This document shows positions 13,512-23,268 of a stretch of DNA of 52,003 nucleotides, in pieces; within the stretch, counting starts at the first letter, position 1; the number at the start of each line of letters is the position of its first letter. The stretch comes from Nitrososphaerota archaeon (GTDB lineage Archaea; Thermoproteota; Nitrososphaeria_A; Caldarchaeales; JAVZCJ01). Below the pieces are notes generated by a model that saw only the letters and a program-made list of their open reading frames with translations, ran no database searches and was not told the origin of the DNA. Both the position numbers and the translations under genes were made by a program. The DNA lies in NCBI GenBank assembly GCA_038817485.1, contig JAWAZL010000008.1:1-52003 (forward strand). Direction: 5' to 3'.

Positions 13512-13772
13512 ATCACTTTCATCACCAAATGAATGCCGCTTCTTTTTAATTGTTTTTAAAAAGTACTTGTTTATCAATTTTTATAATCTCTTCATCTCAT
13601 TATAACTGTCAAGAGTCATTCTATTTAATAATGTTTAAAATTCTTAAAGTGAAAGATAAAAAGTTTTCAAAAGTATTATAAGACATAGTATGTATCATTT
13701 TTTATTTTTCTGAAAAAAAGAGTAAAATCTTTATTTACCTAATCAGTACTGACTATAATAAGAGTGATGAGT

Positions 13773-14781
13773 ATGTTTTTAATCCCTCCTTGGGAAATTA
13801 AAAGGGAGCTTTTAATAAGATTTGAAGCTACTACTGATGAAAAATATGGAAAGAAACCTGAGGAAAGAAGCATTAATGAACTATTATCTTTAGGATTAAT
13901 AAATCTTGATAAACCTAGAGGCCCTACTAGCCATGATGTAACTGCAAATATTAGAAAAGTTTTAGAAAGAGAGCATATTGGTCAAGGCGGGACTCTAGAA
14001 AAATAGGAGAAATCCCGCTGTTTCAGGAGTATTACCAATAATGCTTGAAGAAGCTACTAAATGCTCTAGAATATTTATGCATAGTGGAAAACAATATGTT
14101 TGTTTAATGAGACTTCATGAAAAGCGTTCAGAGGAAGAAATAAGAAATGCATTAAAGTTTTTCACAGGTGATATTTATCAAGTCCCTCCAATAAGAGCAT
14201 CTGTAAGTAGAAGGGTTAGAGTACGTACTATATATAGGGTTGAGTTGCTTGAAATAGATGGAAAAGATGTTTTATTTATTATAGATTGCTCTGCTGGAAC
14301 ATATATTAGAAAATATTGTTACGATATAGGATTGTATTTAGGTTGTGGAGCTCATATGCAAGAATTACGTAGAACAAGAGTTGGATCATTAACTGAAGAT
14401 GAAGCAGTAACTTTACCTGAAATTTATAAAGCTTATATAGAATGGAAAGAAAATAAAGAAGAAAAATATATTAGAGAAATTGTTAAACCTATAGAATATT
14501 CTTTAAAAATCATACCTAAAGTATACGTTCTTGATTCAGCTGTTGATGCTATTTGTCATGGAGCAAGTGTAGCTGTAGGTGGAATTTCTATGCTTGAAAG
14601 TAATATAAATAAAGGGGATATGGTTGCAATATTAACTTTAAAAGGGGAACTTATTGCTTTAGGAATTGCTCTTATGACGAGTAATGAAATATTTGAGAAA
14701 AATTCAGGTTTAGCTATAAAAACAGATAGAGTAATAATGAAGCCAAATACTTATCCTCCTTTATGGAGAAAGAAACATTAA
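13773..14781 (+). CDS. cbf5: Cbf5 (archaeal dyskerin) tRNA/rRNA pseudouridine synthase, interrupted by a 13-nt intron
   Basis: The catalytic subunit of H/ACA ribonucleoproteins, also making tRNA Psi55. The genomic frame runs into TAG at 14004-14006. Removing 13999-14011 rejoins it and restores the catalytic motif GQGGTLDPAVSGVLP, with Asp76 as nucleophile, giving 331 residues, normal for archaeal Cbf5. Exon 1 carries the N-terminal DKP loop (INLDKPRGPTSHDV). Exon 2 carries the rest of the TruB domain (SAGTYIRKYCYDIGLYLG) and the C-terminal PUA domain (about 245-325, MKPNTYPPLW at the end). GTGAT lies 4 nt before ATG 13773; GTG 13764 and ATG 13767 are alternatives. cbf5 introns are known from Sulfolobales and Desulfurococcales. 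It is followed by a tRNA-Ser gene. Confidence 0.93.
13999..14011 (+). other. 13-nt archaeal BHB-type intron in cbf5
   Basis: The flanks fold as a bulge-helix-bulge. The exon helix is 13986-13992 with 14013-14019 (GGCGGGA/TCCCGCT, last pair G-T). The central 4-bp helix is CTCT 13993-13996 with GGAG 14006-14009. The 3-nt bulges are 13997-13999 and 14010-14012, with cuts after the second base of each. The excised RNA is AAAAATAGGAGAA. The inner stem is absent, so the central helix is closed directly by a short loop. Splicing gives GAT for the catalytic Asp. Splice sites were derived by hand from structure and frame, which agree. Confidence 0.85.
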
Positions 14782-17545: not shown

Positions 17546-17754
17546 TATGTTTCACTATAGAACAGTAAATTTTTAGGTAAAATTAAACTTTTTATCCAAA
17601 TTTAATATCTATTTAGGTTTTCTTTTTATTAAGTTTTAAATATGAATTTAAGAGCCTAAAGCTAAGATTTTAAGAATTATTTTTAATTTACTTTTGAGTA
17701 ATTAAAAAGAAAAGATATATATTAATAAAATGTGATCTTTATTATAAAAGTAAA

Positions 17755-19575
17755 ATGAAAAAATTTGAATATCAATATACTTTATTAACTATCTTAACAT
17801 GCATTTTATTAATAGGAATAGCAACAGGTATTCAAAGAACTATTTTATTACCTTATGGAGAAATGCTTTTCGGTTTAATTCCTCAATTCGGATTCTTAAT
17901 AGGTTTAGTTCTTTCAGCTTTTGGATTTATGAAAGCTAGCATGGGTATTGTAGGGGGAATAATTAGTAATATTATTAGAAGAAAAATAATTTTATTTTTT
18001 GGTACTTTAATTTATAGTATAGGAATATTAATAATTCTTTTTTCAGAAAACTATCTTTTTTTAATTATAGGTTATTTAATGATTGGAAGTGGGGAAGGAT
18101 TATGCTATACAATTTCAATGTTACTTCTTTCTGATATTAAATATGGTGAATATGGTTTTTCTTTTGGATTAATGGAATTTTCAGCTTATTTAGGCTATTC
18201 TATTGGTGGAATAATTGCTGGTTTTATAGTTGCTAATATTGGATTAAGATCAACTTTTATTTTTGCTTTTTTTCCAATTCTTCTTACTATAATTCTATCC
18301 ATTATAGGAATAAAAGAAATTGAATTTTTAAATACAAAAAGAGGTAAATCCTTTGAATTAAAAGAATTATATGTTAAATATTTTAAAAGTCCTACAATTT
18401 TAACTACTCATTTTATTGGACATTTATCAAAAATTTTTGATAGTTTGGTATGGATATTCATTCCACTTTATTTAAAAAGCATAATTGGATTTTCGATAGA
18501 AAAAATAGGATTAATAACAGGAATTTTTGTATTATCTTGGAGTTTCTCAATGCCATTATTTGGAAAATTATCAGATAAAATAGGTCGTAGAATTCCAATT
18601 TTATTTGGATTAATATTAAGTGCTTTCTCTCTTTTAGTAATTAGTTATTCAAATTCTTTCTTAATAATCTTTCTATTTTCATTATTAGCTGGAATTGGAA
18701 TTGGAATTTATTATCCAATCATGCCTGCAATTTTAATAGATACCATTCCTCTAGAAACTAAGGGAAAAGTACTTGGATTTTATAGATCAATTAAAGATTT
18801 TGGATATTTCACTGGTCCAATAATCCTTGGTATAATCATATATGTATATGGAATAAATTCAGCTTTTTATACGATAGCTGCTTTAGCATTTGTATGTTCT
18901 ATTTTAAGTTACGTTACTATTAAAGAAACAAAACCTTATTGGAGCATTCTTATTTTATCAAAAATTCATATTAAACAAGTTTTAGATTTAGCTAATGAGG
19001 TGAAAGAAAGTTTTAAAAGTTTTACTGAGAATAATTCAATTGAAATGAAGAAACATATGTTAATAGCAAGATCTATTGAAAATGAAGCAGATAAAATAAG
19101 AAGAGAAATTCTTGAAAAGCTTTCAAAAAGTGTTTTAAAGCCAAGAGATAAAGAAGATCTTGCATTATTAGCTGAAGAAATCGATAGAGTTGCTGGATTT
19201 TGTAATGGAGCTTGTGGAAGACTTGAATGGATTTCTCCAGAAGATGTACCATTACCTATAAAACAGAAAATACTTGAAATGATATCAAATGTTACTAAAA
19301 TGATTGAGAAAATTAAATTAGGAATAGAGATTTTAGATAAAAATTTAATGGAAACATCAATCATTGCAGATGAAGTAGAATTATTAGAAAAGGAAGTTGA
19401 CATTCAATATTTTGACATTCTTAAAAAAATTTTTACCGAATTTTATGAAATAAATCCAACTATAATATTAATGATAAAAGATATTGTAGATAGAATAGAA
19501 GAAGCGGCTGATGGAACTGAGCAAATATCAGATAGACTTAAAATGTTAACAATAAAGCATATTGCTTATACATAG
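17755..19575 (+). CDS. MFS transporter fused to a C-terminal DUF47 (PhoU-like) domain
   Basis: A 606-residue two-module protein. Residues 1-400 form a 12-segment major facilitator with the signature GKLSDKIGRRIPILFG near residue 270 between the halves. Residues about 403-606 are a soluble helical bundle: NEVKESFKSFTENNS, ARSIENEADKIRREILEKL, DLALLAEEIDRVAGFCNG and MIKDIVDRIEEAADGTEQI. This matches the DUF47/PhoU-like family, usually a separate protein next to PiT phosphate carriers, with the Glu/Asp-rich metal-binding ExxxD-type motifs. The fusion suggests an MFS carrier for phosphate or another anion with a built-in regulator (inference). The gene is monocistronic. No frameshift is needed to join the two parts. 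Confidence 0.85.
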   Translation: MKKFEYQYTLLTILTCILLIGIATGIQRTILLPYGEMLFGLIPQFGFLIGLVLSAFGFMKASMGIVGGIISNIIRRKIILFFGTLIYSIGILIILFSENYLFLIIGYLMIGSGEGLCYTISMLLLSDIKYGEYGFSFGLMEFSAYLGYSIGGIIAGFIVANIGLRSTFIFAFFPILLTIILSIIGIKEIEFLNTKRGKSFELKELYVKYFKSPTILTTHFIGHLSKIFDSLVWIFIPLYLKSIIGFSIEKIGLITGIFVLSWSFSMPLFGKLSDKIGRRIPILFGLILSAFSLLVISYSNSFLIIFLFSLLAGIGIGIYYPIMPAILIDTIPLETKGKVLGFYRSIKDFGYFTGPIILGIIIYVYGINSAFYTIAALAFVCSILSYVTIKETKPYWSILILSKIHIKQVLDLANEVKESFKSFTENNSIEMKKHMLIARSIENEADKIRREILEKLSKSVLKPRDKEDLALLAEEIDRVAGFCNGACGRLEWISPEDVPLPIKQKILEMISNVTKMIEKIKLGIEILDKNLMETSIIADEVELLEKEVDIQYFDILKKIFTEFYEINPTIILMIKDIVDRIEEAADGTEQISDRLKMLTIKHIAYT

Positions 19576-19700
19576 AAAAATTGTTATTTTATTCTTTCAA
19601 ATTCTCATAAAAATAGTAATAACATAATTATTCTCTATTTTTAAAATAAATATAATATTTCATAAATAAATAATATTTTAAAAGTTGCAGGAGTAAAAAA

Positions 19701-19734
19701 ACTTAAATACTCGCGTACTCTTTTTCAATACGAG
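19701..19734 (+). promoter_or_regulatory. promoter and imperfect inverted repeat of the sugar ABC operon
   Basis: A TATA-like ACTTAAATA (19701-19709) is followed by CTCGCGTA (19710-19717) and TACGAG (19729-19734), an imperfect inverted repeat with two extra bases in the left arm. The repeat covers the expected transcription start, about 25 nt after the TATA box, and ends just before GAGGG and the ATG at 19742. This placement suits a repressor such as a TrmB-type sugar regulator, but the regulator is not identified. Confidence 0.4.
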
Positions 19735-19741
19735 AGGGAAA

Positions 19742-21208
19742 ATGGTTAAAGAAGAGAAGAAGATTAATAGACGTGATTATTTGAAATATACAAGTGCTGG
19801 TATTGGTGGACTTATAATTGGGGGAGCTTTAGGTTATCTTTTAAAACCAACAGAGGTAGTAAAGGAAACAACAACTATTGTTGCTCCGGGAACTACAGTC
19901 ACTATCCCTGGCGCTACTGTTACTATCCCTGGAGTTACTGTTACAAAGACAGCCCCTGCTGAGACAGTAATAAGAACTATTACTGAAAGAGTAACTCAAA
20001 CTCCTGAATATAAAGGAAAATTAACAATACTTGGTAGAGATGGTTATCATCAAGAAGTTGCTATGAGTATAATAAAAGCTTATCAAGCTGAGAATCCAGG
20101 GGTACAAGTTGAATATATTCCTTTAGGATATTCTCCATTATATGATAAAATTGTCATATCTATGAAAGAAAAATCTGAAGCTTATGATGTTATAATGTTA
20201 GACGACCCTTGGGCTCCTGAATTTATGAGTTCAGGATGGTTAGAAAATATAGAAGATTTAGCTAAGACTTATGGTCTTAATTTAGATCTAGATGATTTTA
20301 TTAAACCAGCTCTTGATGTTTGTAGGTATCCATATCCTACAGGTACTCTTTATGCAGTTCCTTGGTTAGGTAATGTTCAAATGTTTGCTTATAGAAAAGA
20401 TATACTTGAACAGATTGGAGCTGCAGCACCAACAACTTGGACTGAAGTAAAGAATATTGCAAAGAAAATAAAAGAAAAAGTTTCAGGTATATATCCAATA
20501 GCTTTTAGAGGTACAAAAGGAAATCCAATAGTAACTAGTTTCTTACCTATACTTTATGCATTTGGAGGTAAAGTTATAAGTGATGATTTGAAATCTTCAG
20601 CTATAAATACAACAGAATCTATTAATGCTCTTAAATATTTTATAAGTCTTAAAACAGAAGGGCTTACTCCACCAGGAGTAGAAACTTGGGGCACACCAAA
20701 TGTTAGGGATGGTTTACTTAATGGAGAAGTTGCTATGGCAGTAGAAGTATGGCCTGGTTGGATAATGTATATGGATGATCCAGCAAAGAGTAAAGTTCCA
20801 GGTAAAATCGAAGTTATGTCTCATCCTAGAGAAGTAAAACCTGGAGCTCCAATGCTTGGTGTATGGTTATATGGCATATCTAAATTCTCAAAGAATAAAG
20901 AACTTGCAGTTCACTTTTTACAATACTCAACAAAGTTTTTAATTCAAAAATTTGCTACTTTAGAAAAGGTATTTCCACCAGTAAGAAAAAGTGTTTTCGA
21001 AGATGAAAGTGTAAAAGCACGCTATAGATGGTATCCTGCACAATATGAAGCATTAAAAAACTCAGTTCCAAGACCGAGAATAACAAAATGGGCTAAAGTA
21101 GAAGATGCATTAGGCACTATACTCCAACTTGCACTTGTAGGTCAAATGTCTCCAGAAGAAGCGATATCAACAGCTCATAAACAAATTAATGAAATCCTAG
21201 CATCTTAG
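19742..21208 (+). CDS. Tat-exported ABC sugar-binding protein
   Basis: A 488-residue family 1 extracellular solute-binding protein. The N-terminus has a twin-arginine signal (NRRDYLKYTSAGIGGL) and a hydrophobic segment that probably anchors it to the membrane. A Thr/Pro-rich stalk (about 40-90) follows, with the repeated phrases TVTIPGATVTIPGVTVT. The binding domain begins near residue 95 (GKLTILGRDGYHQEVA) and includes FRGTKGNPIVTSF and MLGVWLYGISKFSKN. It delivers a sugar or other polyol to the two permeases that follow. Ligand unknown. No ATPase gene is adjacent, so a shared MalK/MsmX-type ATPase must be encoded elsewhere. Confidence 0.9.
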   Translation: MVKEEKKINRRDYLKYTSAGIGGLIIGGALGYLLKPTEVVKETTTIVAPGTTVTIPGATVTIPGVTVTKTAPAETVIRTITERVTQTPEYKGKLTILGRDGYHQEVAMSIIKAYQAENPGVQVEYIPLGYSPLYDKIVISMKEKSEAYDVIMLDDPWAPEFMSSGWLENIEDLAKTYGLNLDLDDFIKPALDVCRYPYPTGTLYAVPWLGNVQMFAYRKDILEQIGAAAPTTWTEVKNIAKKIKEKVSGIYPIAFRGTKGNPIVTSFLPILYAFGGKVISDDLKSSAINTTESINALKYFISLKTEGLTPPGVETWGTPNVRDGLLNGEVAMAVEVWPGWIMYMDDPAKSKVPGKIEVMSHPREVKPGAPMLGVWLYGISKFSKNKELAVHFLQYSTKFLIQKFATLEKVFPPVRKSVFEDESVKARYRWYPAQYEALKNSVPRPRITKWAKVEDALGTILQLALVGQMSPEEAISTAHKQINEILAS

Positions 21209-22065
21209 TGAAAAAATTGGAAAAAACTCCTTATCTTTTTTTATCTTTAGCTATAATTTTATTTATTTTTTTAACTCTTTATCCCATAATTGATGTTATA
21301 TATCTTTCATTCCATAAATACGATTTCATAACTGGAGAAAAAGAATTTATAAGTTTAAAAGGATACATAAGTTGCATTGAAGACCCTATTTTTAGGACTT
21401 CAATAATTAACACTTTATATTTTTCTTTAACAGCAACATTTTCTCAAACCTTGCTTGGTTTAGGTATCGCAATTCTAGTTAATAGATTAAAACGAATTAG
21501 GAAATTTTTAATTCCAATCGTAATAGCACCTAATTTACTTCCAGTAGTAGTTGTAGTATCAGCATGGAAACTTTTAATGGACTATGACCATGGACTTTTA
21601 AACTATATTTTAAAATCTTTAGGATTTGAGAAAATTGGTTGGCTTTTTGATCCAAAAATTGTATGGCCATCAATAATACTTATTGATACTTGGCAATGGA
21701 CACCTATTTGTTTTTTAATATTATTAGCAGGTTTACAGTCTATACCGAAAGATCTTTATGAGGTTGCAATGATAGATGGAGCATCTTCAATCTCATTATT
21801 TTTCAATATTACATTGCCTTTACTTAAACCTCAATTATTCTTAACACTCCTCCTTCGAAGTATAGATACTTTTAGAATATTTGAGAAAGTATATTTATTA
21901 ACAGGAGGTGGACCTGGTATAGCAACGGAAACTATTTCAACTTATATATTTAAGAATGGATTAATTTTCTTTGAACTTGGTAAAGCTTCTGCAGCTTCTG
22001 TATTAATGACTTTAATAATAATAGTAGTTGGGATATTTTACATAATGAATATAATGAAAAGGTGA
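21208..22065 (+). CDS. ABC sugar transporter permease (MalF-like)
   Basis: A 285-residue permease of the MalFG type with six hydrophobic segments. The EAA loop contacting the ATPase reads EVAMIDGASSISLFFNITLP (about residues 187-206). The GTG start overlaps the TAG stop of the binding-protein gene by one base, indicating translational coupling. There is no extra periplasmic domain of the E. coli MalF kind. It pairs with the next permease to form the membrane channel. Confidence 0.92.
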   Translation: MKKLEKTPYLFLSLAIILFIFLTLYPIIDVIYLSFHKYDFITGEKEFISLKGYISCIEDPIFRTSIINTLYFSLTATFSQTLLGLGIAILVNRLKRIRKFLIPIVIAPNLLPVVVVVSAWKLLMDYDHGLLNYILKSLGFEKIGWLFDPKIVWPSIILIDTWQWTPICFLILLAGLQSIPKDLYEVAMIDGASSISLFFNITLPLLKPQLFLTLLLRSIDTFRIFEKVYLLTGGGPGIATETISTYIFKNGLIFFELGKASAASVLMTLIIIVVGIFYIMNIMKR

Positions 22066-22071
22066 TGTAAA

Positions 22072-22914
22072 ATGTCCCCTAAGAAGTTTATTTCTAATCT
22101 TTTTTTAAGTTTATCCACTATACTTTTATTGGTATATACATTGCTACCAATATATTGGTTATTTATTACTTCTTTTAAGATACCAATTGAATATTGGACT
22201 AAAACTCCAACTTTATTTCCTTCTAAATTTACTCTTGAACATTATTATGAAATATTCAAGAAAGGTTTCTTACTTAATATATCCAATACAGTTTTTGTTT
22301 GTGTTAGCGCTTCATTAATTGCTATAATAGTTGGATTACCAGCTTCTTATTCTCTTTCTCGATTAAAAATTGCTAACATACTTAAGAATGGGATGTTAAC
22401 TTGGATATTAATATCTAGAATAATACCACCAGTAGTAATAGTCCTTCCTTTATATACAACTTTTAAAATTTTTGGTTTAACTAACAATCTTTTAGGTTTA
22501 TCTATAGCTTATGAAATCTATGTATTACCATTTACTATATGGGCTTTAATAGGGTTTTTTAAAAATATTCCTAAAGAAGTAGAAGAAGCAGCTCTTGTAG
22601 ATGGTGCAAGTAGAATAACAATCCTAATAAGAATTTTTACTCCAATAATATTACCTGGAATTGTTGCAATATTAATAATGGGCATATTGACTATTTGGAA
22701 TGAATTTCTTTTTGCATACGTTTTTTTAAGCGAATCTAGTAAGCTTACTTTACCCGTAGTAATTGCTGGATTAGTAACAAGCGAATATGGTGAAATGTGG
22801 GGTCAACTTGCAGCTGCAGGATTAATTTCATCTATTCCAATGCTATTGTTTACTGGATATTTACAAAAGTATTTAGTTCTTGGATTTGCAACTAGAGAAA
22901 TTGGAAAAATATAG
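22072..22914 (+). CDS. ABC sugar transporter permease (MalG-like)
   Basis: A 280-residue second permease with six hydrophobic segments. The EAA loop is EEAALVDGASRITILIRIF. The N-terminal LPIYWLFITSFK and the later NEFLFAYVFL are typical of MalG-type partners. GGTGAT at 22061-22066 lies 5 nt before the ATG, one of the clearest ribosome-binding sites in the window. It is last in the binding protein-permease-permease operon. Confidence 0.92.
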   Translation: MSPKKFISNLFLSLSTILLLVYTLLPIYWLFITSFKIPIEYWTKTPTLFPSKFTLEHYYEIFKKGFLLNISNTVFVCVSASLIAIIVGLPASYSLSRLKIANILKNGMLTWILISRIIPPVVIVLPLYTTFKIFGLTNNLLGLSIAYEIYVLPFTIWALIGFFKNIPKEVEEAALVDGASRITILIRIFTPIILPGIVAILIMGILTIWNEFLFAYVFLSESSKLTLPVVIAGLVTSEYGEMWGQLAAAGLISSIPMLLFTGYLQKYLVLGFATREIGKI

Positions 22915-23268
22915 TTCTATTATAAAAAAAACTATTGCCATATTTCAAAAATAAGCTATTTATACTCATAAGATCTTAGAAAAGTTAAAATTAGCTAATT
23001 GTTTTTGAAAAATAATTATTTTATAGAATTTTAAAAAATTGTGTAGTATTTAAAAAATTTTAAAGAGAAAAATGAATAGTGTCCGGATAAGAGCCATATC
23101 AGAATTTAATAGGTCTCTCTCTTTCTATAACTTTTCAGTCTATGTTTAAGTATATTTAAAATCTTACTTCAACATATCGAAAAATAAAATGAAAAGCTTA
23201 AATAGTTTTAAAGTGACTTTACGATAAATTATTGTAAATAAACGTGCTACTTCAAAAGTGTATGAAAA
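22915..23268. other. 354-base spacer without a supported gene
   Basis: Mostly A/T spacer. Around 23078-23120 there is a short stretch of higher GC (GTGTCCGGATAAGAGCC and GGTCTCTCTCTTTC) that does not look like its surroundings. I could not assign it to a gene, tRNA or complete insertion element; it could be a remnant of a mobile element end. The right end serves the small membrane-protein gene at 23269. Confidence 0.4.

Follow-up and report, generated by a model that had tools for sequence, protein, structure and literature searches.

Why should one archaeal reading frame join a membrane carrier to a domain that normally is encoded as a separate gene beside a different carrier? The question arises from a 52,003-nucleotide stretch of DNA (hereafter, the window) from a Nitrososphaerota archaeon. 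A preliminary description, made from the letters alone, read one frame as a 12-segment MFS transporter running into a DUF47 helical bundle; proposed that it carries phosphate or another oxyanion; and knew of no description of the architecture. The host, whose genome is 1.44 Mb in size and 98% complete, is a member of the Thermoproteota, and its relatives at the level of phylum include the Thermofilaceae.

The frame itself is as first read. It is uninterrupted on the forward strand (17755..19575), runs from an ATG start to a TAG stop, and encodes 606 residues. Two Pfam domains score far above their curated cut-offs: MFS_1 (PF07690; 2.1e-46, 158.9 bits versus 33.4), and PhoU_div/DUF47 (PF01865; 1.2e-23, 84 bits versus 24.4). 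The DUF47 match spans residues 405-600, inside the 403-606 interval to which the bundle had been assigned, and covers model positions 16-213 of 214. By sequence alone, the tail also matches the solved PhoU-like proteins 3l39 and 2iiu. By eye, no start codon at the domain junction is accompanied by a convincing ribosome site, and a TATA-like, A+T-rich run that precedes the ATG by about 25-40 bases (17715..17730, forward strand) is a possible leaderless promoter.

Structural models agree with this division. An AlphaFold2 model of the full-length protein, for which eight fusion proteins served as input (mean pLDDT 88.7, pTM 0.84), contains the twelve MFS helices (residues 2-388; 17758..18918) followed by six more (399-603). 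In the alignments, TM12 is linked to the first helix of DUF47 by a short junction (about residues 389-398, IKETKPYWSI; 18919..18948); the DUF47/PitR-type, PhoU-like domain occupies residues 399-606 (18949..19572). Folded alone, this domain reaches a pLDDT of 94.1, and its best matches in the PDB are all DUF47 or PhoU-like: 2iiu and 2olt (TM about 0.82), together with 3l39 and PhoU structures (TM 0.64-0.83 overall). The tail is therefore a PhoU-like six-helix bundle by both model and PDB matches, and the significant MFS_1 match and twelve modelled helices place the remainder in the MFS superfamily. MFS structures in the PDB align with the model at Z of about 38-44; OxlT and the glucose-6-phosphate:phosphate antiporter SLC37A4 head these alignments but lie within MFS-wide noise, and inform on fold, not substrate.

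Is the fusion peculiar to this genome? Within the host class (44 genomes), DUF47 occurs in a long frame (625 aa) only in the window genome; the remaining frames with DUF47 measure 171-339 aa. Across the phylum (398 genomes), full-length homologues are found in only one other family, the Thermofilaceae, where they align over residues ~9-604 (E 1e-62 to 1e-95, 25-34% identity). The census of the architecture that the preliminary description had proposed showed that, besides the window genome, 11 of 17 Thermofilaceae genomes carry the fusion (12 genes in all), among them all seven of the genus (g56) that contains Thermofilum. Strict peptide patterns, applied in two scans to 84,980 species genomes, retrieved seven loci only, six labelled Thermofilaceae or Thermofilum and one labelled Thermoprotei archaeon; a plasmid search returned only unfused MFS proteins. 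A search of the open-access literature found no description of the MFS-DUF47 architecture, so that part of the original claim stands, but the architecture is conserved in the Thermofilaceae and not unique to this genome. Because the same domain order and a near-gapless junction recur in these 12 genes, a chance or assembly join is ruled out.

The window protein shares with the Thermofilaceae family its domain order, its conserved junction, and its MFS clade. The MFS parts of all these fusions form one clade (support 95/93), with the window protein outside the Thermofilaceae set. A single clade of DUF47 parts is not rejected (p-AU 0.24); the free tree does not recover it, and places the long-branched window domain elsewhere. 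The simplest reading is one old fusion event, and two events are also compatible with these trees. (Recent transfer from the Thermofilaceae is unsupported: the window protein branches outside all of their fusions, and the base composition of its gene resembles its surroundings.)

The residues conserved among the fusions bear on what the carrier might transport. Nine residues in predicted membrane helices are invariant in all fusions: R28, K60, E141, Y145, K226, D229, Y320, R344, and D348. The charged or polar residues that do not vary within the fusion family lie as follows: R28 in TM1, K60 in TM2, E114 in TM4, E141 in TM5, H223, K226, and D229 in TM7, Y320 in TM10, and R344 and D348 in TM11. 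The set of nine is kept in unfused Sulfolobaceae relatives but not in more distant MFS proteins, from which the positive residues R28, K60, K226, and R344 are also, as a set, missing. By comparison with both groups, only the fusions have Q27, E114, and H223. Several arginines and lysines along the carrier path would fit an anion. Exact equivalence of R28, K60, and K226 to GlpT R45, K80, and R269 is rejected, and the resemblance is analogy only: K60 appears to lie one turn off GlpT K80, and the profile alignment with Escherichia coli GlpT, UhpT, UhpC, and DgoT paired the C-terminal half with their N-terminal halves only.

Conservation extends into the junction and the tail. Junction residues E391, T392, P394, and W396 are invariant in all fusions, within a nearly gap-free [K/R]ET[K/R]PxW motif. 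Three acidic ExxxD pairs in the DUF47 part (E442/D446, E545/D549, and E582/D586) are invariant in 11 fusions, and are present also in the host's own PiT-linked DUF47. In Thermotoga PhoU, the E(D)xxxD motif is tied to iron clusters (PMC5686610); the pairs in the fusion are of this PhoU type, and are putative metal ligands.

Profile searches exclude several familiar families. The fusion has no Pfam match, at E up to 1, to the PiT domain PHO4 (PF01384) or to the NptA/Na-Pi cotransporter domain (PF02690), and TIGR00887, the PHS phosphate:H+ symporter model (equivalog cut-off 610 bits), is not among its 25 best NCBIfam matches. Among the matches listed, the best reaches no more than 88.6 bits. Judged by these matches, the protein is a member of the MFS with a DUF47 domain, outside the PHS, PiT, and NptA families. 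Nor does it stand beside a PiT carrier: the host's PiT has its own neighbouring DUF47. The fusion carries a DUF47 domain, yet by context is not a PitA accessory.

What other phosphate systems accompany it? The host encodes three DUF47 domains: one beside PiT, one beside a glycyl-tRNA synthetase gene, and one in the fusion. Its only PiT gene, on contig C19, is divergent from its DUF47 neighbour. In the search for PiT and Pst suggested at the outset, PiT is present, but neither PstC nor PstB was found above cut-off in the window genome. Elsewhere, Thermofilum (g56) has no PiT but does have PstC/PstA-like genes, and genera g132 and g142 have the fusion together with PiT. Since PiT or Pst is present in most fusion-bearing genomes, the fusion is not simply a replacement phosphate importer; obligate replacement of PiT is rejected as a rule, because PiT persists in three fusion genomes and Pst-like genes occur in Thermofilum.

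The gene neighbourhood can be compared with that of a sister species (G021) that has no fusion. There, the sequences flanking window block 17593..23178 are adjacent, leaving a clean empty site. Besides the fusion gene, the absent 5.6 kb encode two permeases and an ABC substrate-binding protein of sugar type. A single gene separates the empty site from a complete PstB-PstA-PstC-PstS operon with an AbrB-domain PhoU gene, next to NFACT (L110, 11610-16442). This arrangement is suggestive of gain or loss of the fusion, in the host genus, at a spot that adjoins the Pst operon in the sister. Neither in the window nor in Thermofilum does a phosphate gene adjoin the fusion. Several Thermofilum genomes (L069, L071, L072, and L074) share a conserved neighbourhood in which a radical-SAM gene and FeoB are convergent to the fusion; it carries little weight as a proof of iron transport, the genes being convergent and the window having no such neighbours. 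Two further features of the host genome may be recorded here: an E1/E2 ubiquitin-like gene cluster on another contig (L005), which suggests that the host belongs to the Caldarchaeales, and a Cbf5/TruB-like pseudouridine synthase in the window that appears as two frames (13764-14006 and 14041-14781). As this gene is essential, the break is probably a frameshift introduced by sequencing or assembly.

The partners of unfused DUF47 offer a second line of evidence. PiT adjoins DUF47 at 16 of the 40 standalone loci examined, some of them short. The starting premise, that DUF47 normally is a separate partner gene of PiT, therefore holds in the host's own genome and at 15 other loci, and accords with bacterial PitR, a PiT-linked PhoU-like protein that co-occurs with PitA in 97.8% of cases (PMC13170248). 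(PitR is equated here with DUF47 on the basis of PiT linkage and PhoU-like fold.) PiT is not the only partner. In fusion-less Thermofilaceae and in family f14, DUF47 shares an operon with a pair of ABC ATPases and a double permease that is best matched by models of molybdate, tungstate, and sulfate permeases (L117, 3210-8864; L118, 987-6601; L119, 748-5362; L120, 3314-8954; L121, 851-5475); the Thermofilaceae operons also include an SBP_bac_11 binding protein. DUF47 in these operons may be read as an accessory of the ABC importer. Two genomes of family f24 have closely spaced genes for DUF47, a HAD-like hydrolase, and an MFS protein on one strand (L146, 3918-6832; L147, 4666-7613), and this MFS protein scores best as an aromatic acid/sugar/phosphate symporter type. 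Oxyanion carriers are the thread common to these DUF47 partners.

The best single clue to function is regarded as a second fusion. A scan of the class that contains Thermofilum (81 genomes) found one more long DUF47 frame, in genome G299 of family f47 (L125, 3519-5452). Its carrier half matches TIGR00887 at 2.1e-68, but below that model's strict cut-off; its closest PDB entry is the plant phosphate transporter PHT1;11 (6e-50), with other phosphate transporters also close; and its tail matches DUF47 at 8.7e-10. The junction between carrier and DUF47 is in frame; the first ~100 carrier residues, the N-terminal third, lie in another frame, and this copy, from a metagenome-assembled genome, is either damaged or mis-sequenced. 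No other PHS carrier extending into DUF47 was seen in the 398-genome search. DUF47 has thus been joined separately to an MFS carrier of another subfamily, for which phosphate transport is known. This lends independent support to the original reading of the window protein as a carrier of phosphate or another oxyanion.

Together, these observations suggest a model to which we give slightly better than even credence: the fusion is a self-regulated carrier of MFS fold for phosphate or a similar oxyanion, regulated in cis by a cytosolic, carboxyl-terminal DUF47 domain of the PitR type. Its substrate, direction, metal binding, and gating we infer as follows. MFS carriers normally have both termini in the cytosol, so DUF47 would hang below the carrier. 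The substrate, most likely inorganic phosphate or a closely similar oxyanion, would cross through a charge-lined central pathway (Arg28, Lys60, Lys226, and Arg344, with Glu141, Asp229, and Asp348). The DUF47 bundle would bind metal, phosphate, or both through its ExxxD acidic pairs, sense the internal load of phosphate or metal-phosphate, and open or damp the carrier in cis, much as PitR is thought to act on PiT and the PhoU-like tail on NptA. Transport could be low-affinity uptake, or overflow exchange or export; the missing Pst system of the window genome slightly favours uptake.

The strongest alternative is a variant of this model: the carrier would serve as an exporter or overflow valve for phosphate, opened by DUF47 when cytosolic phosphate is high. 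In its favour, most fusion genomes also have PiT or Pst importers, general efflux-type MFS models are the best-scoring NCBIfam models for the fusion, and a precedent exists in the role proposed for YjbB, as cited in PMC13170248. However, direction cannot be read from MFS model scores; a further exporter would be costly to a genome without Pst; and the PHS-type member of the architecture, in G299, belongs to an import family. Export of phosphate is rather unlikely.

Unfused relatives of the carrier suggest another oxyanion, because the nearest of them adjoin sulfur-type MBL/TusA genes or an arsenic cluster. Among the closest are Sulfolobaceae MFS proteins (L048, L050, L052, L054, and L056). At three Sulfolobaceae loci (L105, 5112-7702; L106, 5125-7678; L107, 6156-8736) the carrier is divergent from a TrmB-type regulator, behind which comes an ETHE1-like MBL hydrolase; L105 has a gene for a TusA-domain protein nearby. 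A Bacillota homologue has ArsR, MBL, rhodanese, TusA, and TauE genes as neighbours. A Nitrososphaeria relative (L108, 3099-8226) is accompanied by an LMW-phosphatase-type ArsC, an aquaporin, two ArsM-like methyltransferases, and an HxlR regulator, in what looks like an arsenic cluster. All three settings would suit a detoxification pump that removes from the cell an oxyanion of sulfur or arsenic (sulfite, thiosulfate, arsenate, or an arsenical), with DUF47 as its sensor of metal or anion load. Yet the fusion has no such neighbours, either in the window or in Thermofilum; elsewhere DUF47 goes with PiT, with oxyanion importers, and with a PHS carrier; and the fusion residues E114 and H223 differ from those of the Sulfolobaceae carriers, so the substrates may differ. 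This alternative seems less probable again than phosphate export.

Least probable is an ordinary drug or metabolite carrier with DUF47 as a dimerising or stabilising tail that has no part in phosphate-linked regulation: drug carriers such as NorA are the best structure matches of the MFS part by sequence, and phosphate genes are not adjacent, but no match reaches an NCBIfam drug-carrier cut-off, the DUF47 part retains its ExxxD pairs and PhoU fold across deep divergence, and DUF47 recurs with oxyanion carriers.

The proposed self-regulated phosphate or oxyanion carrier has implications beyond this locus. A natural single-chain fusion, in which carrier and regulator are held in fixed stoichiometry and position, bears on how PhoU and PitR proteins sense phosphate and signal to carriers, and its thermophile origin may suit structural work. 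Moreover, the recurrence of DUF47 with PiT, with a PHS-type MFS carrier, with another MFS type, and with molybdate/sulfate-like ABC importers suggests that it is a general regulator of archaeal oxyanion carriers, not only a PiT accessory. Such a role could help assign substrates to many unnamed archaeal transporters.

How does the fusion compare with known systems? The unfused Sulfolobaceae carriers share its nine invariant membrane residues, but have neither DUF47 nor Q27, E114, and H223, and adjoin a TrmB regulator and an MBL hydrolase. The PHS family (TIGR00887; Pho84, PHT1) shares the MFS fold, and its G299 member was joined to DUF47 independently; however, the window carrier lacks the GGDYPLS signature and scores nowhere near the TIGR00887 cut-off. 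Plant SPX-MFS proteins bear their SPX domain, which has no relation to PhoU, at the N-terminus. These vacuolar phosphate transporters (PHT5/VPT; PMC4821872) likewise pair an MFS phosphate carrier with a helical regulatory domain, but their eukaryotic MFS subfamily differs from that of the fusion. PitA-PitR has the same regulator family (PF01865, PhoU fold, ExxxD pairs) and the same carrier-plus-regulator logic; its regulator, however, is a separate gene beside PiT, whereas that of the fusion forms one chain with an MFS carrier, and PiT is absent from Thermofilum, which has the fusion. NptA Na/phosphate carriers resemble the fusion in placing an N-terminal carrier and a C-terminal PhoU-like bundle on one chain, as in 258 of 306 NptA genomes (PMC13170248); the carrier there is of the NptA/Na-Pi type and the tail is described as PhoU-like, in contrast to MFS and DUF47/PitR. 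Carrier-regulator fusion as such therefore has precedents, in NptA-PhoU and in plant SPX-MFS, and MFS-DUF47 is real, conserved, and recurrent. Tentatively, and with a little less than even confidence, it may be counted as a fourth layout of regulated phosphate or oxyanion carrier, after Pst-PhoU, PitA-PitR, and NptA-PhoU: one in which the PitR sensor is covalently joined to an MFS carrier, which would have arisen at least twice in the Thermoproteota, and which in some lineages without PiT would provide the only clear DUF47.
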